Positions 465-15,031 of a stretch of DNA of 47,275 bases are shown in pieces (position 1 is the first letter of the stretch; every line of letters starts with the position of its first letter). Source of the stretch: Clostridia bacterium (GTDB lineage: Bacteria; Bacillota; Clostridia; RGIG6154); the NCBI GenBank assembly GCA_017410375.1, contig JAFQQW010000042.1, positions 1 through 47,275 of the forward strand, read 5' to 3'. Under the pieces are notes generated by a model. That model saw only the letters and a program-made list of their open reading frames with translations, did no database searches and had not been told where the DNA came from. The position numbers were made by a program, and so were the translations under genes.

Positions 465-742
465 AGCACCTTCCCACAGGAGTTTCACCTCAGCCCATTC
501 TGATGGCCTGCCGTCCAATTCAGTGACGAGTTCAAGACGGGAGTATCATTATCAGCAATAATGGTCTTCGCATAACGGTTTGCAAATCCGCCTTATTGCA
601 TGAAGTTTATCGCTCGCTTCTACGGAGTAGAGAAGGTCTTCGCGCCTTTGCAAAACTGCTCGCATTATTACTTGTGTGTTTTGATGTTGTTATTCAATTT
701 TCAAGGTTCAACTTATATATTTTAGCTAGGATTTTCTTCTTG
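465..742 (-). ncRNA. Candidate structured non-coding RNA or long leader upstream of xis
   Basis: This gap has no credible ORF but is unusually GC-rich for the region. On the minus strand it holds a series of hairpins: CTTCT/AGAAG with a CTAC/GTAG core near 620-645, CATTAT/ATAATG around 560, GAG/CTC near 485-500, and GGAAG/CTTCC (463-480) near its 3' end. A strong promoter (750-780) lies directly upstream. It could be a free small RNA or the 5' leader of xis, located as expected for a regulator of excision. I could not match it to a named RNA family. The 3' end is set by the last hairpin and is approximate. Confidence 0.5.
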
Positions 743-3503: not shown

Positions 3504-3533
3504 CATAGTATAAATTCTCTTTTGCTTTAATAT
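3504..3533. repeat. 30-bp direct repeat, copy 2 (remnant gene start after the SLH gene)
   Basis: Nearly identical to 2406-2435. It overlaps the stop codon of the SLH gene and contains an orphan ribosome site and ATG. The frame that opens there reads MCLFIIFSQKIKI and stops; the MxLF opening resembles the MGLF of the Sel1 protein, suggesting the scar of a lost paralogue. Confidence 0.75.
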
Positions 3534-5359
3534 TCAAAAATGTTATTTACGCATCTTACAGAAATAAGAATTGATTGCTCTTTTGTTGCAGTATCTAAAG
3601 GAGCAAAATGAGCACCGTCAACACCTTTTACAATTCCGTATTCTGCCATAAAGTAAACACTTTCTTTGGCATAATCGGATATTTCTGAATCATCATAAAA
3701 TTTTCGCACATTATTCACATCAAAATCGTATATTTTATCATTTTCAGCAAGCTTGATAACTCTATACAGCATAGTGGCAAGCTGTTCTCTGCTTATATTA
3801 TCGTAAGGTGAAAATGTTGTTTCGCTTGTACCTTTTGTTATTCCTAATTCGTATGCTATGGCAATATATGAAAGATACTCGCTTTCATAGTCGCAATCCG
3901 TAAAAGGCATATCGTCAATATCTACATAGGGAGCCTCGCCGACTATATTTTCATATAATGTTACTGCAATAGCTGCAAATTCTTCTCTTGTGATAGTGTC
4001 GTACAATGTATCTTCTAACATTTCATCGGGAATAAGACTATTTTGATATGCTTCGTAAACTTCTTCAGCAGCCCAATCTGATGTTGCAAATTCGATTTCG
4101 GTTTCCTCTGTATTTTCTTCTATATCATATATGAATTCATCACAATAAGGACATATTTCATATCCGTCTTCGTCATAGACAGCTTGGCTATCCTTAAAAT
4201 TTTCTCCGCAATGTGGACACTCGATGTAGTATTGTTCTTCTTCGTCTTTTTCCTGAGTTAAATTTTCATCACAGTATGGACAAATTATATTACTGTTTTC
4301 ATCATAAACATCGTCTGTAACATAAAATTTTTCGTCACAATATTGACATATCATTTCTTCTGTTTCTTCTTCGAGTTCCTGCAAATAATTATAGCAATCT
4401 TGACATATTAAATTATCATTTTCATCATAAAATTCATCGTTATCTTTAATCTCTGCTTCGCAGGAAAAACATATTATTGTTTCATTTTCTTGTGCTTTTT
4501 TCTTTTCCTCTTGAAGTTCATCATTGCAGATCTTGCATATTGTATTGCCTTCGTCATCATAAAATATGATATCATCCACTATTTCATCATCGCATATAAA
4601 ACATATTTGTTTATGTATGATTTCCTCTTCTGTCAAACATATAACTTCCACATTGTCTAATACAGAATTACCAGAACCGATTGTTATGTTTTCCCATTGA
4701 GTTCTTGTTCCACCATAATATATAGTATTAAGCGAATTACAACCATAAAATGTTCTATTACCAATTTTTTCTACCGTGCTGGGAATATGTACTGTTGCAA
4801 GGCTTGAGCAATTTGTAAATGCACCTTGTCCAATGTCTTTCACCCCATCGCTTATCTCTATCTCTTTTAAATTCTTACACATTGCAAATGTAAAATGATA
4901 TATGTTTTGTAAATAATCAGGTAGTTTTATAGAGACAAGATTTGTACAACCTTCAAATGCACTTGAACCAATTATTTTAACTTCACTAGGGATAGAAATT
5001 GATGCTAGTGAGGTACAATTTTTAAAAGCACTATAACCGATTTCTGTTACAGCGTCAGGAATTTGTACTTCTTCAATCTTTTCACACCCATAAAACACAT
5101 AATTTCCTATATATGTTAATTCTTCTGGCATAATAATTTCTTTAATCAAAGGTGAAAATACATACCAGCCACCACCATTATCAAAGTTATACATATCTCC
5201 GGAACCAGAAATTGTTAACATTCCGTTATTGTCCAACTCCCAAGTTAAATTATTGCCACAAGAACCATTGGATAAAATGCTGGCATTTACACTTAAACTG
5301 AATGTCGAACATATAATTATAAAACATATAAGTAAACTTATTATTTTTTTCAAAAACAT
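3527..5359 (-). CDS. Secreted LRR, zinc-ribbon and S-layer-homology protein
   Basis: A 610-residue surface protein. Residues 1-26 are a signal peptide ending SVNA. Residues 65-240 are BspA-type leucine-rich repeats (I-P-x-x-V-x-x-I-G-x-x-A-F-x-x-C-x-x-L), often used for adhesion. Residues 250-410 hold four modules with CxxC pairs at C253/C256 and C275/C278, C297/C300 and C319/C322, C338/C341 and C360/C363, and C381/C384 and C403/C406, separated by acidic spacers. Residues 428-610 are three SLH motifs that bind pyruvylated cell-wall polymer. Zinc-ribbon-like modules in an exported protein are unusual. The start follows a GGAGTG-type site. It is third in the proposed phase-variable surface operon. 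Confidence 0.85.
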   Translation of the reverse strand: MFLKKIISLLICFIIICSTFSLSVNASILSNGSCGNNLTWELDNNGMLTISGSGDMYNFDNGGGWYVFSPLIKEIIMPEELTYIGNYVFYGCEKIEEVQIPDAVTEIGYSAFKNCTSLASISIPSEVKIIGSSAFEGCTNLVSIKLPDYLQNIYHFTFAMCKNLKEIEISDGVKDIGQGAFTNCSSLATVHIPSTVEKIGNRTFYGCNSLNTIYYGGTRTQWENITIGSGNSVLDNVEVICLTEEEIIHKQICFICDDEIVDDIIFYDDEGNTICKICNDELQEEKKKAQENETIICFSCEAEIKDNDEFYDENDNLICQDCYNYLQELEEETEEMICQYCDEKFYVTDDVYDENSNIICPYCDENLTQEKDEEEQYYIECPHCGENFKDSQAVYDEDGYEICPYCDEFIYDIEENTEETEIEFATSDWAAEEVYEAYQNSLIPDEMLEDTLYDTITREEFAAIAVTLYENIVGEAPYVDIDDMPFTDCDYESEYLSYIAIAYELGITKGTSETTFSPYDNISREQLATMLYRVIKLAENDKIYDFDVNNVRKFYDDSEISDYAKESVYFMAEYGIVKGVDGAHFAPLDTATKEQSILISVRCVNNIFEY

Positions 5360-5410: not shown

Positions 5411-6502
5411 TTAATTTACAGAAATATAACCACAGAAACTATATCCACTTTTATATCCTTTTGTTATTTTGCCATTAGCTGAATTTACAGTATATGTAAT
5501 TTCTTTTACAATATCTGGGCCATAATATGATCCCGTGTTGCCTTCGATAATTGTTATAGTTTTTTTTGATTTATCTACTGATGTGACAATTCCCACATGG
5601 TCGGAATCGGACAAGTTTGATGTTTTTGCAAAGAATATAACATCGTTTTTCTTTAACGATTTTAAGGAGTTTTTATCCCATTTGTGATAACTATTACTTT
5701 TGCTTTCCATAGTATCACAATCTGCGGTTTTATAAATAACATTTGTTGAAATTCCTGCCTTGTTTGCACACCAACTTACAAAACTCGCACACCATTGTTG
5801 TCCGTTTGTTCCTGTAAATGCACCATACTTTGTATAATCACCCGTACCTTTTCCATTTTTGTTAGTACCTTGATAACCTATTTCTGCTTTTGCAACATCA
5901 GCTAAAGATTTTGTGTTTGAAGATGATGTGCTATCATCTTTAGATGTGGGTGTTTTTTTAGTCATTTTAGCATAGTCAGAGCCTTTAACCCAACCCATCT
6001 TATGTCCTTTAGAAACAGGATAGATTATTTGTACCCAATCACTTTTCTCATTTCCACTTAACAGATAGCATGTATCACCTTTTGCAACCGAACCGAATGT
6101 ACTTGATTTTCCTTTCCATTTATATGTCGTTGCCTTTGTTTTTGCTGTAAATGATGAATCTGCTGCATCTTTTGCTAAATCACGCTTTGTAAATGCATCT
6201 CTTGAAAACCAAGCTGTCTTTGTTCCATTAGATACAGGATAAGTAACTTTTACTGCTTTTCCGCTTATTTCTATAATCTTACATTCATCAGTTGGGCAAG
6301 CAATATATCCGCCTGTCTTTGTTTTTAGATTAGATGCTGTATAGGCATATACTTTTCCTGATGAATTATATGTATATGTTGTTAATGGCTTGCTTTTTGA
6401 TATTGTCGGCAAATTCGTTTTTGCTAATACATTAACACTAAAAATTGTTGATAGGATTAACACAAAAGTCAATACTGATGATAAAATTCTTTTTGATTTC
6501 AT
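5411..6502 (-). CDS. Secreted CHAP-domain cell-wall hydrolase with two SH3-like domains
   Basis: A 363-residue exported peptidoglycan hydrolase, amidase or endopeptidase type. Signal peptide 1-27 (SVNVLA). Two bacterial SH3-like segments (about 45-108 and 122-180), with GTKTAWFS and GHKMGWVK signatures, should bind the wall. A Ser/Thr linker (183-198) leads to the CHAP domain (200-363). The catalytic set is visible: Cys238 in QQWCASFVSW, His302 in DHVGIV, and the EGN pair at Glu320/Asn322. Its start lies 50 bases after the lipoprotein stop. It may act in wall remodelling or, within a mobilizable element, help local wall opening; the first is the safer reading. Confidence 0.85.
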   Translation of the reverse strand: MKSKRILSSVLTFVLILSTIFSVNVLAKTNLPTISKSKPLTTYTYNSSGKVYAYTASNLKTKTGGYIACPTDECKIIEISGKAVKVTYPVSNGTKTAWFSRDAFTKRDLAKDAADSSFTAKTKATTYKWKGKSSTFGSVAKGDTCYLLSGNEKSDWVQIIYPVSKGHKMGWVKGSDYAKMTKKTPTSKDDSTSSSNTKSLADVAKAEIGYQGTNKNGKGTGDYTKYGAFTGTNGQQWCASFVSWCANKAGISTNVIYKTADCDTMESKSNSYHKWDKNSLKSLKKNDVIFFAKTSNLSDSDHVGIVTSVDKSKKTITIIEGNTGSYYGPDIVKEITYTVNSANGKITKGYKSGYSFCGYISVN

Positions 6503-6552: not shown

Positions 6553-7716
6553 TTACTTCTTAATTTCACTGTAATAGTAAATATCAAATCCCGTTTCGCT
6601 TTCTATCGGAATAATAATACTATTTTTTCCCTCGTGTATTACTTTTACTTCAGTTTTTTCTTCTTCCTTATTTACCATATAAACTTTCTCTTCATCTTCA
6701 TTATATTCCAGGAGCCCGAAATCTATATATTTAACACCGTTTCTGCCTACGATACAAAGTTGATTATCTTCGTTAGTTAAACCAACACAATCATTTTCAC
6801 CGCTTGGAGATAAACTATCAAAGTATCTTTCTTCATATAATGTATTTCCATCCCAATCTTCAAGCTTCATTGTTGAGTTCGAGCCATACAAGTTATATGG
6901 TTTTTTTGACTTATTTTCTTTTTTGTTTTCCGCTGTAATAGCAGAATATTTACTTAAGTATTCATTAAATGTAATAATATTACCCTTTGATTTAATATTT
7001 CCATCTGCATCTATAATAACTTCTTCAAGGTCTTTTTCTTCAGCGTTAGAAAGCAAATACATATTAAATAGATCACCGGATTTAACTTTATATCCAAGTC
7101 CTTTATCAAATCGATGCATTTCCTCGCCCTTGTAATTATAAACCACCATATCTGCAAAAGACCATTCTATGTAACATTTATTACTTAACCAAATAGTACC
7201 TCCTAATTTTACATGTCTATCAACTCCGCTTAGAAAGTCACCATTTTTATTATAGAATTTATATTTTTCTATTGTGTTTTTGTCAGAACTCATTATGCTT
7301 TCATAGAAAAACGGTGTGTTGTCATCAGCATCGTTATCCAATTCAAAACTCAAGTCATATAAATGACCTGTGCTTTTTAAAATCTCATTTCCCTTAACAT
7401 CAAGAATCATTTCGAATTCTTCTCGTTCTGCCTTGAGATATAAGTTTTCATGTTCAGATGTGACATATTCATCCTTATTAACAAAATCTAAATCATCATA
7501 GTCAACTGGAAGGATTTCTTTTCCTTTATTATCCAATAGTCCATAGACTTTTCCATCAGTTTTGCTTACAATAATGGCATTTTCACAGTAGTCTTCAATG
7601 TCATATTCAGTAGTGAATAATTTGCCGGTTTTGCTACCAGTACAACCAGTACACACAGACAGAGTCATGAGCAATGCCAAACTTCTAGTAATTAGTTTGA
7701 ACTTTGATTTAATCAT
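6553..7716 (-). CDS. Probable lipoprotein with WG-type repeats
   Basis: A 387-residue protein. The N-terminus (KLITRSLALLMTLSVCTGC) is a lipoprotein-like signal; the lipid-bearing Cys is probably Cys25, although the residue at -3 is an atypical Cys. The mature part repeats short blocks like KVYGLLDNKGKEILPVDYDDL, the WG-repeat pattern, which builds a beta-propeller-like fold with unknown ligand. It is the first gene of the surface block. The ribosome site AAGGAGGAAG is strong, yet no convincing promoter lies between the start and the inverted repeat at 7751-7772, which supports the inverton hypothesis. Confidence 0.7.
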   Translation of the reverse strand: MIKSKFKLITRSLALLMTLSVCTGCTGSKTGKLFTTEYDIEDYCENAIIVSKTDGKVYGLLDNKGKEILPVDYDDLDFVNKDEYVTSEHENLYLKAEREEFEMILDVKGNEILKSTGHLYDLSFELDNDADDNTPFFYESIMSSDKNTIEKYKFYNKNGDFLSGVDRHVKLGGTIWLSNKCYIEWSFADMVVYNYKGEEMHRFDKGLGYKVKSGDLFNMYLLSNAEEKDLEEVIIDADGNIKSKGNIITFNEYLSKYSAITAENKKENKSKKPYNLYGSNSTMKLEDWDGNTLYEERYFDSLSPSGENDCVGLTNEDNQLCIVGRNGVKYIDFGLLEYNEDEEKVYMVNKEEEKTEVKVIHEGKNSIIIPIESETGFDIYYYSEIKK

Positions 7717-7750: not shown

Positions 7751-7772
7751 CTACATAATCTGTATTATGTGG
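7751..7772 (+). repeat. Left inverted repeat of a candidate invertible promoter
   Basis: A 22-bp site made of two 9-bp inverted arms (ACATAAT.../...ATTATGT) around a 4-base asymmetric core, CTGT. It is the reverse complement of 7990-8011 at 21 of 22 positions. Paired arms around an asymmetric core are what a tyrosine recombinase site looks like. Confidence 0.7.
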
Positions 7773-7832
7773 TAATTGGACAAGTAAATAGTTATTTGCA
7801 AGCAGTCTATTAACTTATTATGCAACGATTTT

Positions 7833-7868
7833 TAGACCAATGTTAGTACATTTTGGGGCATTGGTCTA
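7833..7868. repeat. 10-bp inverted repeat inside the invertible segment
   Basis: TAGACCAATG (7833-7842) and CATTGGTCTA (7859-7868) are perfectly complementary around 16 bases. No T-run follows on either strand, so a terminator is unlikely. A protein-binding operator or a recombination accessory site is possible. Confidence 0.6.
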
Positions 7869-7925
7869 GTTGTCGTGGTTATTTATATTTTTTATAAATT
7901 TCAAACTTAAAAGTTTCGCAAATTA

Positions 7926-7954
7926 TTGACTTTTTTCAGTATTGGTAGTATAAT
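7926..7954 (+). promoter_or_regulatory. Strong promoter within the invertible segment, present orientation
   Basis: TTGACT (7926-7931), exactly 17 bases, then TATAAT (7949-7954). Predicted start near 7961. In the present orientation it faces away from the surface genes and produces about 57 nt before the terminator at 7990-8017. Confidence 0.75.
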
Positions 7955-7989
7955 ATTATCTATAATTATATGTATATCTAGCTTTTTCA

Positions 7990-8011
7990 CCACATAATAC
8001 AGATTATGTGG
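7990..8011 (-). repeat. Right inverted repeat of the candidate invertible promoter
   Basis: Perfect 9-bp arms, CCACATAAT and ATTATGTGG, around the core ACAG. It is the inverted partner of 7751-7772; the one difference is in an outer arm. Confidence 0.7.
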
Positions 8012-8017
8012 TTTTTT
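7990..8017 (+). terminator. Hairpin plus T-run overlapping the right repeat
   Basis: The right repeat forms a 9-bp stem with a 4-base loop and is followed at once by TTTTTT (8012-8017). It should stop the transcript from 7961. The T-run lies outside the invertible segment, and no T-run follows the left repeat in the leftward direction. Confidence 0.7.
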
Positions 8018-8022
8018 GTTTT

Positions 8023-8864
8023 CTAACAGAGTAGAAGTCCTAATTTTTGAATTTGCATTCTATGGATTTCACCTGACTCCATTGTATATATTCTCGTTGT
8101 GTTTACACTTGAATGTCCAAGAATATCAGCAAGTCGTACGACATCTTTTTGGATAGAGTAGTAGGTACGAGCAAACAAATGGCGCGGAGATTGTGAGGGA
8201 ATACTTTATCTTTTGATATCCTTGCGCTTTCGCATAGTTTCTTCATATCAGACCATATGTTGCTTCTATCAAGCGGTTTTCCGTTTTTGCTAACGAATAC
8301 GGAACCACTTTTTATATTGTTTTCTTTCATATATCCTTTTAGCATTTTGCAAAGTTGCTTAGGTAAGATAACTATTCTCATTTTACCTTTACAGTTGATT
8401 GTTGCTTGTCCAGATTTGACGGCAGAAACCGTTATAGCTTTAAGTTCTGATACACGGATACCTGTTGAACATATGGTTTGCATAATGTGATATAGCCTTT
8501 GATTTTTCTTTTGCTTTGCAGCAACTAACAACCTTTCATACTCAGCTTTTGTCAGTTCTTTATCCTTGTTTGCAAAAATCTGTCTTTGGATTTTTAGTGC
8601 CTTTACCTTCAGGTCATACCACTCATTATATGCAAAGAAACTGTTAAGTGAGGACGGTATAGAATTTACACTTGCTGGAGCATATTTTTCCACAATATCT
8701 TGCTTGTATTCAAGCACAACACTTTTGTTCAACTCTGATTCTTTGCACCAATCCATAAATACTGATATGTCACGGATATACTTTTCCAAGGTAGAGGAGG
8801 ACTATTCCTCGTCAATTAAATATTCTTTAAACTTTTGTATTAGTTCATTTGTGATTTTTCTCAT
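8023..8864 (-). pseudogene. Tyrosine recombinase, broken by an amber codon and a frameshift
   Basis: Reconstructed, this is a full-length recombinase of about 280 residues with an N-terminal SAM-like core-binding domain and a C-terminal catalytic domain. The gene starts at ATG 8864 (AAAGGAG upstream) and reads MRKITNELIQKFKEYLIDEE, then a TAG at 8804-8802, then SSSTLEKYIRD in the same frame. The first catalytic Arg (TGIRVSEL) and HNLR are intact. An extra GC near 8182-8187 shifts the frame right after HNLR; the lost frame still encodes HLFARTYY, LGHSSVNTTRIYT with the catalytic Tyr, and a stop at 8025-8023. Internal reinitiation (8789-8103) would lack the Tyr. The shared promoter at 8957-8985 drives it. 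Its adjacency to the inverted repeats suggests it was the invertase. Confidence 0.85.
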
Positions 8865-9131: not shown

Positions 9132-11378
9132 CTAAAAAAGATATTTGTGTGCACTATTTTTAATGTCATTTGGCAAATTAGCTATAGGAACCCTGAGCAA
9201 TTCGCCTGGTTCAATCTTCTTTAATCCTCCGGCATAAATGCGAGAAAAGTTAGGCAGAATATTTTCTGCAGTATAATTCAAAGCTGAAAGCAATATATCA
9301 TATAATGAGTTATCTCTTTTTAACATATCCATTAACCAACTTTTGGGATATAATAAAATATATGTGTTTAGTGCAATAGCATTAGATTTATTCCACAAAA
9401 AATAAATAGGTTGCTTATTTTTACTTCCTCTGCCCATGTAAGTCATCAAAAAAGGTGGTGGCAAACGTGTTTCTTGTTTATACCATGGTTCTCTAGATTT
9501 TACAAGAGTTCTATCAATTATCCTTTTTCCGTCGTTTTGCTTTATTTTAGCTAATTGCAGATATTCATAAAATTTTGGGAAAGTATTTTTTATATACTCT
9601 TCATCCATATCCGAATCTATTATTACAAGTTGTTGTTCTAATAATGGATATCCCTTATCATCAGAATCTATAATGTTAGACTCCAAAAACCTAGACTTAG
9701 GCAATATAGGTTTTAAGGCAACTTCAGGAATTTCATATTCTACAGCTTTTCCTCTATCTAATACAAAATAAGAATTTGCGCCTGTAGCAATTCCTCTTTT
9801 AATATCAAACAAATCTGCAAATGTAATTCTATTATTTTCATCAAATTGGTATAAACCCTCATGGCCATTTAAAATAATATTTCGCCAGTTTGTTTTTTCA
9901 TTTTTTAATAATTGAGAATTTATTTTTGTTTTCATCTCTGGTTTTTCTGAAGAATAACCATATGAGACTTCGATATCATAATCATAGTCACATTTACACT
10001 TTTTAAAAGTTACTATACATGTAGAAACATTTGCTTTTTCAAATTGTCCCTCTTGCTCTTTATATATATGCAGTCTCATAAGTTGCACATTATTCAATAA
10101 ATATTCTCGGATTGCCCTGCCATATTTAGTTTGAAGAAATAGGGAAGGAATCAGCCATGAAGCCACTCCTCCTTCTTTGAGCCATTTATCCATTATTAGT
10201 AAATGGTATACATATAAACTTGCATCTCCTGGAATATCTATTCCTGTCTGTAATTTTGCACACTCTTTTGCCACTTTCAAATAGCCTGTTGATATATCCT
10301 CATGTCTATTATATGGTGGATTTGCTAATATTAAATTCCGTTGGGGGGGTATTTTTATTGTGGTAGATATAGCATCTCCTAATATCACTTCTAGTCCACG
10401 AAGTTGATATCGTGTAGATGCATCTCTAACTGCATCCTCATTAATATCAATGCCAGTTGCCGTTTTAATCAAATAATCTTCATTAATATTTTGATTTAGT
10501 AAGGCTAAATAAAGTGCGCCATTTCCTATAGTAGGATCTCCAAAATGAATTTCTTTCTGCTCATCATAAAAAAATTCCATTGCACAAGAAACCATTTCTC
10601 GAGCATACTCTGGGGGAGTTACATAAATATTAGCCTTATCTTTATTAATAAAAATCTTATCTTCATAATATATTTCCCCGTTTGGAGATACTACAAAATT
10701 CTCTTGCCTTTTATTTTCTGTACTAGAGTTAGTTTGATTTAAATAAACTGATTTTGCAATTCCTTTTTTCTTGGCTTTTGATTTTTTTATATATATATTA
10801 AGCCCTTCAATAATTGATTTTATATAACTTATTTTATACTTTTGATTACTCAAATTATTATTAAAATCTTTAACCCTCTCGTAAGGTAGTAAGTCATTGA
10901 CCAAATTTTCAATATTTTTTATCGAATTCCCTTCAGGCTGTCTTCCTATTGTGTTTAAAACGAGTTTTTGCGGATGACTAAATTTAAGTTTGTAATTCCA
11001 ATCTATTTCCAAAAGCATATTATATAATTTAGTGGCAAAAGTATAATCTTTTCCTTCATATAATGTTAAATGGAGTCTGCTAAAAGGATAGTCAGGCTTA
11101 TAATCAATTTTTTCCAGTTCCTCAGATTCACATCTTAAAAAGACTACATAATTTGTGCTTTCATTTAACATGTCAAGATTAAAAGCCCCAGGTTCTATGA
11201 GATTTAAATATGCAGGCATAATTTCTTCAATATACTCTGTTGCAAGCCCTTCATTTTTTAATGGTCTAAGTGTTATGTGGGGCAGTGATTTGCTGTTTGG
11301 GTTGCAAATATATTTTATCAATGTCAAACACTTTTCTATATATTGATTATTGTTTAAAAAAAGTGCATAATATTTCAT
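9132..11378 (-). CDS. 2H-phosphoesterase-like domain fused to N6-adenine DNA methyltransferase
   Basis: A 748-residue, probably cytoplasmic protein. Residues 1-150 carry two HxT motifs, H34-I-T and H103-L-T, 69 residues apart inside hydrophobic strands, the hallmark of 2H phosphoesterases (RNA ligase-like enzymes that open cyclic or 2'-5' phosphodiesters). Residues 250-500 form a class I methyltransferase: SAM loop F-G-D-P-T-I-G-N-G-A (279-288), acidic GIDINED (309-315) and catalytic NPPY (353-356), so adenine-N6 is the expected target. The rest, with KRGIATGANSYFVL, resembles the TaqI/Eco57I-type specificity region. No nuclease motif is seen. ATG 11378 follows AGAGG; it is 17 bases after the nucleotidyltransferase stop and last in the operon. 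Confidence 0.8.
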   Translation of the reverse strand: MKYYALFLNNNQYIEKCLTLIKYICNPNSKSLPHITLRPLKNEGLATEYIEEIMPAYLNLIEPGAFNLDMLNESTNYVVFLRCESEELEKIDYKPDYPFSRLHLTLYEGKDYTFATKLYNMLLEIDWNYKLKFSHPQKLVLNTIGRQPEGNSIKNIENLVNDLLPYERVKDFNNNLSNQKYKISYIKSIIEGLNIYIKKSKAKKKGIAKSVYLNQTNSSTENKRQENFVVSPNGEIYYEDKIFINKDKANIYVTPPEYAREMVSCAMEFFYDEQKEIHFGDPTIGNGALYLALLNQNINEDYLIKTATGIDINEDAVRDASTRYQLRGLEVILGDAISTTIKIPPQRNLILANPPYNRHEDISTGYLKVAKECAKLQTGIDIPGDASLYVYHLLIMDKWLKEGGVASWLIPSLFLQTKYGRAIREYLLNNVQLMRLHIYKEQEGQFEKANVSTCIVTFKKCKCDYDYDIEVSYGYSSEKPEMKTKINSQLLKNEKTNWRNIILNGHEGLYQFDENNRITFADLFDIKRGIATGANSYFVLDRGKAVEYEIPEVALKPILPKSRFLESNIIDSDDKGYPLLEQQLVIIDSDMDEEYIKNTFPKFYEYLQLAKIKQNDGKRIIDRTLVKSREPWYKQETRLPPPFLMTYMGRGSKNKQPIYFLWNKSNAIALNTYILLYPKSWLMDMLKRDNSLYDILLSALNYTAENILPNFSRIYAGGLKKIEPGELLRVPIANLPNDIKNSAHKYLF

Positions 11379-11395
11379 ACATATACCTCTCAAAA

Positions 11396-12349
11396 TTAAT
11401 ACAAATCTAGCTTCTCCTTTAAAACACTATTTGTTTCAGATACTTTCTTCATTAGTTCATGTATAACAAGTTGGTGAAACTCATCGGCTTTTTTAAATGC
11501 CTCATTCTTATTTTTAATAGTCCACCAATTGATGTCATATTTTCTTAGATCCATATACCATTTGTATTCTGTTTTAATTCTCGATATAATTGAATTTATA
11601 TCGGGGACAAAAGTTTCTAACTCATTTATTCTCTCAAATGGTGTTAACAACATATATTTTTTTACATCTTCAGGAGTAAGTTGAGGTTTGAATAAGCAAG
11701 CAATCATTGAATAGCATGTGATTAGCCTAGCAAATTTCAATTTTAATCTTTTCCAATTCTTTTTGTTTTCATCATCTAATGGATCTCTTCTGTACTCATA
11801 ATTTAAAGCTAATGTGTACCAATAACGCAATATGTCATTAATTAGAAACAGAGGATAGAAGTTATCACTATGCTTTTCGTAATCCACAAAATATTTTTCA
11901 ACTATGTTGTCTACAATTTTATTATATAATTCCTCATTATAAAGGGGTCTGCTCTCTAACATTAGAAGCATTCTAGCAGTAAAACTGTTATTAAAATCTT
12001 CATTTCTGCTACCAATGTCTAATAAATTTTCTTTTTTTATAAACTCCCAATACTCACCTTGTTTACTAGGTTCCGGAAATTGATTCTTTTTATTGATATC
12101 ATACATTTTTGAAAAAAAGTTATACTTATCTAAATTGGAGACAGGCTTTGGTTCATTAGAATCAATGATGAAAAAAAGATCCAAATCTGAATTGTTAGAC
12201 ATCTCAAGCCTTCCCAGTGAGCCACATGTAAAAACACAAATTTTTTTATTAAATGAACTATCAAAAGAAAACGTACTTTGCATATTATCTTTTAATAACT
12301 TTATTTTATCTAATGATTGGGTTTTCAATTCAAAAAAATAGTTGTTCAT
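11396..12349 (-). CDS. Pol-beta-type nucleotidyltransferase (GlnD/DUF294-like)
   Basis: A 317-residue cytoplasmic protein. The signature G43-S-L-G-R-x-E-M-x-x-x-S-D55-L-D57-L is that of DUF294/GlnD-like nucleotidyltransferases; the two Asp should bind metal. The C-terminal 200 residues are helical with conserved-looking aromatics (YPLFLINDILRYWYTLALNYEYRR). Substrate is unknown: it could modify a protein, an RNA or a small nucleotide. It is not a clear CD-NTase, whose GS motif lacks the downstream GRxEM. ATG 12349 has AGGAG nine bases upstream and begins 16 bases after the SLATT-like stop; the longer frame to 12442 overlaps that gene and is rejected. Confidence 0.75.
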   Translation of the reverse strand: MNNYFFELKTQSLDKIKLLKDNMQSTFSFDSSFNKKICVFTCGSLGRLEMSNNSDLDLFFIIDSNEPKPVSNLDKYNFFSKMYDINKKNQFPEPSKQGEYWEFIKKENLLDIGSRNEDFNNSFTARMLLMLESRPLYNEELYNKIVDNIVEKYFVDYEKHSDNFYPLFLINDILRYWYTLALNYEYRRDPLDDENKKNWKRLKLKFARLITCYSMIACLFKPQLTPEDVKKYMLLTPFERINELETFVPDINSIISRIKTEYKWYMDLRKYDINWWTIKNKNEAFKKADEFHQLVIHELMKKVSETNSVLKEKLDLY

Positions 12350-12365
12350 GCTTATTTCTCCTGTA

Positions 12366-12821
12366 TTAAATGTGTTTAATGGCTTTCTGCCAGTATTTAA
12401 TATTCTTTTGTTGGAGATTGTCCAACTTGTTTTTATAAACATTTAAATTAGCTGAGTCCATTTTGTTTGAAATTGCATCAAACACAAAATTATCTCTCAA
12501 AATATTTAACTCAATATGAATTGTTATGTTTCTAACCCAATATTCCTCAAAATTAAAATATGCGGATATTGCAGTAAAGAAAGTAATTGCGGATGTCGCT
12601 GTAATTCCCAATATTTTATGAAAGGTAGAATTAATAACATCATTAATACCACATATAATTGTACTTAACATTGCCAACAATAAAATAAGTATTTTCAGTG
12701 TTCTAACAATCACTTTATATTTCTTGTCCTGGTTGCTGAAATAATTATGATATTTATCTATCATATCAAAAGTATATCGAGCCTCTGGGGTTAATTTTTC
12801 ATACCATTCTTCGCTTTTCAT
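12366..12821 (-). CDS. SLATT/DUF4231-like two-TM protein
   Basis: A 151-residue protein with two adjacent membrane segments (about 43-62, ILILLLAMLSTIICGI; and 70-90, GITATSAITFFTAISAYFNF), then an amphipathic helical tail. This layout, and the YWVRNITIHIELNILRDNF region after TM2, match the SLATT/DUF4231 group. Published comparative analyses of SLATT proteins link them to nucleotide-activated conflict systems and predict a membrane-damaging effector role. It is the first gene of the operon, with a strong promoter 25 bases upstream of its ribosome site. Family assignment rests on topology plus local pattern; a structural match should be checked. Confidence 0.65.
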   Translation of the reverse strand: MKSEEWYEKLTPEARYTFDMIDKYHNYFSNQDKKYKVIVRTLKILILLLAMLSTIICGINDVINSTFHKILGITATSAITFFTAISAYFNFEEYWVRNITIHIELNILRDNFVFDAISNKMDSANLNVYKNKLDNLQQKNIKYWQKAIKHI

Positions 12822-13184: not shown

Positions 13185-14717
13185 TTACATCCCCAACTGA
13201 ATATCATTGTCTTGAATTTCTTCGTATTCATCAATATCGACTTCGTCTATCTGGTTTGCTTTGAGAGATTCATCAGATGCTGTTGATCTAAGAGTTGCCC
13301 CCTGATTAATACCTTTTGTTAAGATAGCACCTATGAGCCCAGCTGCACCACCTAATGCAAACCCAAAGTTTGAACCGGCATCTTTGGCATCGAGTTTCTT
13401 TTTCTTCTCTTCGGGATCGTCATCTTGGTCGTTATCCATCAGCGAAGCCAAAGCTGTAAGAGTACCGACACCAGCGTCGAGAAGAATGTTGCTGCTCCTA
13501 TCGTAATTTCCAGGAACTTCAACAGATGTTTCTTCAGCATATCTGTAGCTTCCTCCAATGCTTCTAAGTTGGTTCTCATTTCCGAGGAGAACTCTGAAAT
13601 AAAATTCTCTCTCATCTTCCCATCCTGTTTCAAAGTATTCTCCACATCCTTCACTGTCTCCGTGTGTTTTCTCTGAATATAGTTGGTCATATCCGCCAGT
13701 TTCTGCAATAGCTGATTCATCAGGTCGATCTGATTCTCTTCTATCATATCGCTCGTCGCCAACTTCGAAATTACTTCGTACAGTTACGGCTGAAATTCTA
13801 CCATATCCTTCATCAGTTGTATCTCGATTGACCTCTGTTCCTTTGGTATGGAACATATCTCCACTTGATAAGTCTGTTGTGCGAGTTCTTCCAAATTTGA
13901 AGAGTTCCTCTTGATTAATTCTTCCATCGAGAAGTTCTTTTGTGAGTTGTTCTCGTATCTTGAATTCATTCTCAATCATCTCCTTTAAAAATTTATCATC
14001 ATGCAGTTTAATATCTCTGCACAGTTTTCCATTTGGACAAGTAAAAGTGATATTTTTTCTTTCATCTGTCCATCTCATTTGGTATCCTCGTTTTGCCATT
14101 TCTTTTGTAAATTGATTTCGATTACCGCTATATTTCATACTCTCTTGAATATCACTTATAAGCCTAAATTTCCAGCTCTGACCTTTTTCTGCGGCACGAT
14201 ATTCTCTTGTTGAAATACTTCTGCCGCCTTTTTCATAAGGAGGCAACACAGAGAAGCCTTGACTGATACAAATTTCATCACTAATATCTCTTAAAACCTT
14301 TAGGGAATTGGGAGTGAAATGTATCTTAGAACCGTTTTCAAAATTCACAGAATTAACAACAAAATTGGAATGTAAATGAGGCTCGTCCATATGTGTACAA
14401 ACTAAAACCTCATGTCCCGGCCAAGCTCGTTTAGCAAACTCAATCCCAACCTCATGTACTTGCTCAGGCGTAATTTTTTCTTCAGGTGAAAACGATTGAG
14501 AAAAATGATAGAAATTCATACCGGTTTCTTTGTGATAAACTGCTTTTGTTGTCATAAATTCTGCATAGGCATTTTCGCCAAAACAATTAATTCCGGTGAT
14601 TAATTTTCTTCCTGAATTCACATCAAACGTTTTCTCTTTCCTCAGACAATAATTGATGAGACCACGCATTGCACTTGGGCTTTGTTTTGCTTCAGGAATT
14701 ACATTTACTGTTGCCAT
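13185..14717 (-). CDS. mobA: Mobilization relaxase (MobA/VirD2-like)
   Basis: A 510-residue relaxase that nicks the element's oriT and pilots the DNA strand into a recipient, using another element's conjugation apparatus. The N-terminal 160 residues contain the metal-binding HxDxxHxH motif, seen as HMDEPHLHSNF, preceded by the HFSQSF strand and Tyr residues suitable for catalysis. The C-terminal half is hydrophilic and of low complexity, with a final hydrophobic Gly/Ala segment (FGFALGGAAGLIGAI). Two other ORFs are nested there out of frame. Its ATG at 14717 overlaps the mobC stop (TGATG), so the genes are coupled. No type IV secretion genes are in the window. Confidence 0.85.
   Translation of the reverse strand: MATVNVIPEAKQSPSAMRGLINYCLRKEKTFDVNSGRKLITGINCFGENAYAEFMTTKAVYHKETGMNFYHFSQSFSPEEKITPEQVHEVGIEFAKRAWPGHEVLVCTHMDEPHLHSNFVVNSVNFENGSKIHFTPNSLKVLRDISDEICISQGFSVLPPYEKGGRSISTREYRAAEKGQSWKFRLISDIQESMKYSGNRNQFTKEMAKRGYQMRWTDERKNITFTCPNGKLCRDIKLHDDKFLKEMIENEFKIREQLTKELLDGRINQEELFKFGRTRTTDLSSGDMFHTKGTEVNRDTTDEGYGRISAVTVRSNFEVGDERYDRRESDRPDESAIAETGGYDQLYSEKTHGDSEGCGEYFETGWEDEREFYFRVLLGNENQLRSIGGSYRYAEETSVEVPGNYDRSSNILLDAGVGTLTALASLMDNDQDDDPEEKKKKLDAKDAGSNFGFALGGAAGLIGAILTKGINQGATLRSTASDESLKANQIDEVDIDEYEEIQDNDIQLGM
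13439..13747 (-). CDS. ORF nested in the relaxase gene: coiled coil plus C-terminal TM
   Basis: About 102 residues in another frame on the same strand. It has a long amphipathic helix (IEENQIDLMNQLLQKLADM...VENTLKQDGKM) and a C-terminal membrane segment (FLEITIGAATFFSTLVSVLLQL). This is far more protein-like than a chance shadow. ColE1 and RSF1010 mobilization loci also carry small genes inside the relaxase gene, one of them membrane-associated. The start is uncertain: ATG 13747 has a weak site, and TTG 13762 is another option. Coupling to the upstream nested ORF is plausible. Confidence 0.55.
   Translation of the reverse strand: MIEENQIDLMNQLLQKLADMTNYIQRKHTETVKDVENTLKQDGKMRENFISEFSSEMRTNLEALEEATDMLKKHLLKFLEITIGAATFFSTLVSVLLQLWLR
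13784..13969 (-). CDS. Small ORF nested in the relaxase gene
   Basis: A 61-residue hydrophilic, helical frame (MNSRYENNSQKNFSMEELIK...). ATG 13969 has AAAGGAG ten bases upstream, itself inside the relaxase codons for KE. It shares a reading direction with the second nested ORF, 37 bases downstream. Similar to the two nested genes of ColE1-type mob regions in layout, not in recognised sequence. Confidence 0.4.
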   Translation of the reverse strand: MNSRYENNSQKNFSMEELIKRNSSNLEELAQQTYQVEICSIPKEQRSIEIQLMKDMVEFQP

Positions 14718-15031
14718 CAATCTCGCCTCGCAATCTCTCCAATGCGATCATTTAATTTATTAATCGCATTGATAAATTCTTCGAAATTATACGAGTAAAA
14801 CACCTTTGCATTAACCTTTTGCGTGAGCTGATTAATGTTGTTACCTATGCGCTTAAGTTCTAATAAAAAAGGTTGCATATTTACGGGAATATAGATAGGC
14901 GTTTCGTTGGAAAGTCTGACCATATAATCTGAAACACTTAGATCTGCTTTGTCTGCACGTTTTTGAATATATTGTTTTTCTTTCTCCGTAACTCGTATTG
15001 TTAATGTCTTATCTCTTTTTCTTTTTGACAT
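14717..15031 (-). CDS. mobC: MobC-like relaxosome accessory protein
   Basis: A 104-residue protein with an N-terminal ribbon-helix-helix (KTLTIRVTEKEKQYIQKRA, then LSVSDYMVRLS) and a C-terminal helix with ELKRIGNNINQLTQKVNA, the pattern of MobC/NikA-like proteins that bind oriT and help the relaxase melt it. The ATG follows AAGGAGG by 8 bases. It sits between the hairpin-rich presumed oriT and the relaxase gene, with which it overlaps by one base. Confidence 0.85.
   Translation of the reverse strand: MSKRKRDKTLTIRVTEKEKQYIQKRADKADLSVSDYMVRLSNETPIYIPVNMQPFLLELKRIGNNINQLTQKVNAKVFYSYNFEEFINAINKLNDRIGEIARRD

Follow-up and report, generated by a model that had tools for sequence, protein, structure and literature searches.

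A probable phase-variation switch with an Xer-like recombinase pseudogene in a gut Clostridia genome

The invertons of gut bacteria (PMC11892184) share with the locus considered here a short intergenic promoter segment that lies within inverted repeats, often near surface genes. The RecV switches of C. difficile, including cwpV (PMC5903667, PMC2784873), likewise employ a tyrosine recombinase that flips a short segment upstream of a surface gene. RecV itself is unlinked and acts on several sites (PMC5903667), and an intrinsic terminator has been proposed for the OFF state of cwpV (PMC5903667, PMC2784873). A third point of reference is the Xer/dif system (PMC2731167), in which E. coli dif reads GGTGCGCATAA-TGTATA-TTATGTTAAAT; three of its traits recur in the elements described below, namely the family of the recombinase, the CATAA/TTATGT inner arm and a centre of 6 bp. 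Our literature searches on the site sequence, on dif-like promoter inversion and on invertible promoters in Lachnospiraceae, Oscillospiraceae or Ruminococcus found nothing on the present family.

Here, we analysed a DNA stretch of 47,275 nucleotides (the window) from a gut Clostridia genome, in which a switch of ~240 bp lies between three predicted target genes and a recombinase pseudogene (Table 1). Homologous loci were gathered from 60 related genomes and from a scan of 84,980 species genomes, and about 90 of them carry the same module of an Xer-like recombinase, two palindromic dif-like sites, a promoter and a target. Nearly all of these loci come from gut metagenome assemblies of Clostridia, and a close recombinase relative (E at most 1e-90) was present in 46 of the 291 sampled genomes of the class. 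We put a probability of roughly 0.85 on the reading that the window holds a phase-variation cassette of a Clostridia-wide family, with an invertible promoter and a dead recombinase of its own, probably frozen OFF. The observations behind it concern the anatomy of the switch, its conservation in the family, inversion between loci and the lesions of the recombinase gene.

Table 1. Features of the switch and its neighbouring genes (window positions)
Feature	Position	Strand	Basis or detail
BspA-type LRR protein with S-layer homology domains (610 aa)	3527..5359	-	domain match
CHAP-domain protein (363 aa)	5411..6502	-	domain match
First target gene, putative lipoprotein (387 aa)	6553..7716	-	AAGGAGG ribosome site; no Pfam match
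Distal (target-side) recombination site	7751..7772	none	CTACATAA-TCTGTA-TTATGTGG
Conserved internal dyad/hairpin, upstream of the promoter	7825..7876	none	GACCAATG...CATTGGTC core; GACCR..YGGTC motif, fold
Predicted promoter TTGACT-17-TATAAT	7926..7954	+	sequence match; position conserved in relatives
Terminator-like hairpin of the proximal site (10-bp stem, 4-nt loop) with T6	7989..8017	+	-11.3 kcal/mol
Proximal (recombinase-side) recombination site	7990..8011	none	CCACATAA-TACAGA-TTATGTGG
Xer-like tyrosine recombinase pseudogene	8023..8864	-	TAG 8802-8804 (codon 21); GC duplication within 8182-8185

Anatomy of the switch

The distal site (CTACATAATCTGTATTATGTGG) and the proximal site (CCACATAATACAGATTATGTGG) are inverted copies that agree at 21 of 22 positions across a gap of 217 bp, in the places that a sequence-only reading of the window had assigned to two facing 22-bp sites, and they thus enclose a short segment in the manner of an invertible-promoter switch. 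That reading had divided each site into 9-bp arms and a 4-base core. The inverted arms hold, but 8-bp arms around a 6-bp centre (TACAGA) fit the variation of the family better, since all six centre positions vary between loci and match within a locus. In a scan of the 2.77-Mb genome at up to three mismatches (<=3), the window repeat recurred at only three sites, all in one homologous locus on contig C28, and the reversed control pattern gave no matches in the same scan.

Inside the segment, the predicted promoter matches the consensus at 11 of 12 positions and points right, toward the 3′ end of the recombinase gene and away from the surface genes (the OFF orientation), in agreement with the near-consensus promoter reported before. 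It is the best of five sigma-70 matches in the region; as such matches are not enriched there (5 found, 8.2 expected), the call of an outward-facing promoter rests on its conserved position in relatives. Flipping the segment about the site centres would move the predicted start from near 7961 to near 7801 and, with the start codon at 7716, would give a leader of 85 nt, which reproduces the earlier estimate of about 85 bases. The accompanying proposal, that the flipped promoter would lie upstream of the genes from 7716 down to 3527, is well backed by the ~90 homologous elements, many of which are oppositely oriented, and by the conservation of gene order and direction. The lipoprotein gene was absent from every other genome in the window's family, which left no copy of this locus there to be seen in the opposite orientation.

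The earlier reading had overlooked the terminator-like hairpin that the right site forms together with the adjoining T6. A T-run (at least six T in nine) borders the proximal site on its outer side in 55 of 72 relatives, as against 3-4 of 72 at the other three site flanks. As a caution for a terminator reading, the same stretch doubles as the short A-rich spacer that follows the stop codon of the recombinase gene. Given its place beside the proximal site, this T-run should terminate the OFF transcript soon after its start, which would shield the recombinase gene from antisense transcription.

The motif of the internal dyad (GACCR..YGGTC) was detected in 44 of 72 elements, where 0.1 would be expected, and the fold of the dyad has z scores of -5 and -6. 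It lies at a nearly constant distance from the -35 box, mostly about 60 bp, with a few cases at 50 and 70. Its interpretation as a simple terminator found only partial support: a T-run follows the hairpin in a minority of elements (16/44 on the promoter strand, 9/44 on the other strand), while the clustered distance to the -35 box would be compatible with a protein site in helical phase as well, with termination as the alternative.

Several further features were recorded elsewhere in the window. Upstream of the recombinase gene and on the same strand, positions 9132-12821 encode a type II-like adenine methyltransferase, a PDC-M70A (candidate defence) protein and a SLATT-domain protein. Relaxase and MobA-like genes at 13185-15031 suggest a mobilizable element that includes this region, and a pemK RNA motif (Rfam RF02913) lies at 474-552 (-).

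The recombinase gene and the present state of the switch

The family recombinase is Xer-like. Among solved structures, archaeal XerA (4a8e, 5hxy) and E. coli XerD (1a0p) come closest to it, and its scores fall below the equivalog cut-offs of XerA, XerC and XerD (157 bits vs 220 for XerA_Arch and 140 vs 330 for XerD). In the window, the domain matches the tyrosine recombinase model PF00589 and not the serine recombinase catalytic domain of Hin and Mpi, and the reading as a serine DNA invertase was dropped. A tyrosine recombinase gene does adjoin the right site, as had been noted, but a working enzyme is not to be expected from it: codon 21 is a TAG stop where 12 of 12 aligned relatives have Lys, and directly behind the HxxR motif the reading frame is disrupted by a duplicated GC (2 bp), with loss of the last catalytic His and of the Tyr. 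As assembled, the gene cannot encode an active enzyme. Errors in the draft assembly are possible, but two separate lesions make decay the likelier explanation. The dedicated recombinase, intact in nearly all relatives, is therefore a pseudogene in the window genome, and the switch is a member of the family by descent, at present perhaps frozen. With its own recombinase a pseudogene, it is probably locked OFF or reliant on another recombinase.

The sole close paralog in the window genome, encoded on contig C28, is intact and 70% identical to the window recombinase. It belongs to a second switch of the family (L035, 4394-5768), which has three sites and stands in the ON orientation before the start of a TetR-like regulator gene, within which the contig ends.

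Most loci of the family have G as the base that follows TTATGT, and others have T. Residue 205 of the recombinase (C28 numbering) is K or S in 44 of 51 loci with G (R in 2) and R in 16 of 20 loci with T. On the tree, the site state changed about 10 times, and among well-supported independent pairs the residue changed the same way in about two of five and the opposite way in none, so that the covariation is suggestive only and weak once the tree is considered. The window remnant combines S205 with G-type sites, whereas the C28 enzyme combines R205 with T-type sites, which makes rescue in trans by the C28 enzyme doubtful.

The main alternative to a frozen switch is one that remains active, with the C28 recombinase or chromosomal Xer recombinases inverting it in trans, or flipping in cells that carry an intact allele elsewhere in the population. 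The intact state of the C28 enzyme and its similarity to the window recombinase, the identity of the CATAA/TTATG arms, the occurrence of loci with mixed G and T arms and the precedent of C. difficile RecV, which works on several distant switches (PMC5903667), all speak for this alternative. Against it stand the differing residue and site types just described, the adjacent recombinase kept by nearly all family loci and the single orientation in the assembly. Taken together, we regard continued flipping as rather unlikely and lean toward a switch that is frozen OFF.

Inversion, spacing and targets across the family

The family sites are dif-like palindromes of the form CCACATAA-N6-TTATGTGG, with two XerD-like arms; their CATAA/TTATG-type arms around a 6-bp centre are a likeness of site and not of role. 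Among the two-site loci, which were taken for having a proximal and a distal site and not selected for a matching centre, the inverted 4-nt cores matched in 72 of 72, with 40 different cores and 4.5% matching expected from their frequencies. Such matching is the trace expected if strand exchange needs an identical overlap sequence. In 93 pairs, the inner arms CATAA and TTATG are invariant and the four middle positions vary freely between loci; these pairs were picked for a matching centre and the arm pattern and are hence descriptive, the 72-locus set being the test.

The promoter points toward the recombinase in 49 of the 72 elements and away from it in 22 (one is unclear), and many of the ~90 homologous elements sit in the orientation opposite to that of the window segment. 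Five pairs of related loci (L111/L124, which are paralogs in one genome, L036/L037, L036/L062, L052/L061 and L078/L082) have segments that are 79-84% identical only when one is flipped and at shuffle level when it is not, while the recombinase side is 84-88% identical unflipped. Their target-side flanks have mostly diverged, with some similarity retained in L111/L124 and L052/L061. Two other candidate pairs (L098/L105 and L070/L114) are only 61-63% identical when flipped and were kept out of the main evidence. Furthermore, six contigs (L081, L096, L101, L109, L117 and L121) end 0-9 bp from a site edge, a hint of both orientations in the sample, as this is where an assembler would then stop. 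The flipped segments and these contig ends together argue that the family inverts; both orientations appear between homologous loci, and the window segment was assembled in one orientation only.

The spacing of the sites provides a further regularity. In a scan of periods from 7 to 14 bp, the centre-to-centre distances of 72 elements were best described by a period of 10.5 bp (R=0.597), with whole turns favoured, and 22 later elements gave R(10.5)=0.47 (p=0.0075) at nearly the same phase, with an own best period of 10.2. With one element per cluster, the median p was 2e-7 at 75% recombinase identity (53 clusters) and 0.012 at 70% (26 clusters). The distance from promoter to site edge is phased as well, being mostly 36-39 or near 27 bp, and the window switch, at 239 bp between centres, falls 2.5 bp short of 23 turns. 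We read the periodicity as probable selection for a small DNA loop with both sites on one face.

An extra, directly repeated site with the same core occurs in 13 of 94 elements (L035, L039, L044, L050, L076, L084, L087, L104, L114, L126, L127, L158 and L180), at 32-34 bp (in a few, 41 or 63 bp) from one main site, equivalent to 3, 4 or 6 helical turns. Three paralogous switches of one genome (L111, L118 and L124 in SIG626) have the common core TTTC, so inter-locus recombination would be possible there, unlike in most genomes seen. Genome G106 contains three short elements (L178, L181 and L184) with 149 bp between sites and a promoter-like sequence 4 bp from a site. Viral-collection contigs (L142, L143 and L146) hold recombinase relatives with inverted sites of the family type, and among plasmid records, one from Monoglobus pectinilyticus contains a recombinase relative at 53%.

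An Xer-like enzyme acting at dif-like sites, with relaxase and MobA-like genes nearby, could also mean that the repeats are att-like or dif-module sites for the excision or integration of a mobile cassette, but we hold this to be very improbable: the main sites are inverted, lie 149-377 bp apart and enclose a promoter-like sequence that is flipped between relatives, and the directly repeated extra sites sit beside an inverted pair. Slimmer still is the chance that the repeats are mere terminator hairpins or a coincidence, as the fold and T-run of the proximal site might suggest; the distal site lacks a T-run, and the flipped segments and the centres that agree within every locus and differ between loci refute this for the family.

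An invertible-promoter cassette also accords with the layout of the targets, in that 62 of 65 loci have a first open reading frame past the distal site that is directed away from the switch. First targets matched SLOG (6), TetR (5), List_Bact repeat (4), SPFH (4), cohesin (3) and LRR_5 (2) models, and single targets matched Hsp70, GGDEF and the CAP12/Pycsar TIR domain; some single targets match anti-phage models, a type IV restriction enzyme among them. The cassette is not restricted to a particular type of gene. The targets of L108 and L115 resemble anti-phage proteins (a TIR effector and a helicase/restriction-like protein), with the pairing of hit to locus drawn from sequences and tallies.

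Proposed mechanism and relation to known systems

From these elements we infer how the promoter would be transcribed and its transcript terminated, how the operon would be controlled and that the switch is probably frozen. An Xer-like recombinase would act on two facing dif-like sites about 23 helical turns apart, whose identical 6-bp centres would permit strand exchange, and recombination between them would invert the promoter in between. In the OFF state, the promoter would fire toward the 3′ end of the recombinase gene, and the proximal site with its T6 would halt the transcript as an intrinsic terminator. In the ON state, the flipped promoter would drive the lipoprotein, CHAP and LRR-SLH genes. 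In the window, the loss of the recombinase would leave the switch frozen OFF, apparently a switch without its motor.

For the family as a whole, we find it reasonably likely that a self-contained switch cassette, widespread in gut Clostridia, fronts unrelated genes (surface proteins, regulators and some anti-phage-like genes), with a locus-specific 6-bp centre, a proximal site that serves as the OFF terminator and a spacing in whole helical turns suited to the small loop that synapsis requires. Since regulators and some anti-phage-like genes are found among the targets, the reach of phase variation in gut Clostridia may extend beyond surface proteins. Invertible promoters are already known; the family offers about 90 natural replicates that vary in centres, spacings, arms and targets, and thus rules that can be tested from sequence. 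The matching centres display, across a whole family, the homology rule that governs tyrosine recombinases, and the spacing periodicity suggests that DNA looping is under selection in living cells.

The switch had been likened to clostridial phase-variable switches, and the comparison applies to the invertible promoter but not to a RecV-like arrangement, since the enzyme is Xer-like, the sites are dif-like and each locus has a linked recombinase that adjoins a site, in place of an unlinked master enzyme. In cwpV, the promoter lies outside the segment and the terminator at the junction of repeat and segment, whereas in the present switch the segment contains the promoter and the hairpin is formed by the recombinase-side site itself; the OFF-state terminator that we propose parallels the model put forward for cwpV. 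In contrast to Xer/dif, the present sites have two symmetric arms and occur as an inverted pair, and the predicted outcome is inversion rather than dimer resolution. Compared with the invertons of PMC11892184, the family is coherent: its recombinase is linked and Xer-like, its sites are dif-like palindromes whose centres match and are specific to the locus, and their spacing is phased. Its repeat may belong to one of the unpublished Firmicutes_A motif groups 139 or 125 in that work. Three features of the family look new against these systems, namely the T-run at the proximal site, the quantisation of spacing at ~10.5 bp and the recombinase residue that tracks a base of the site.
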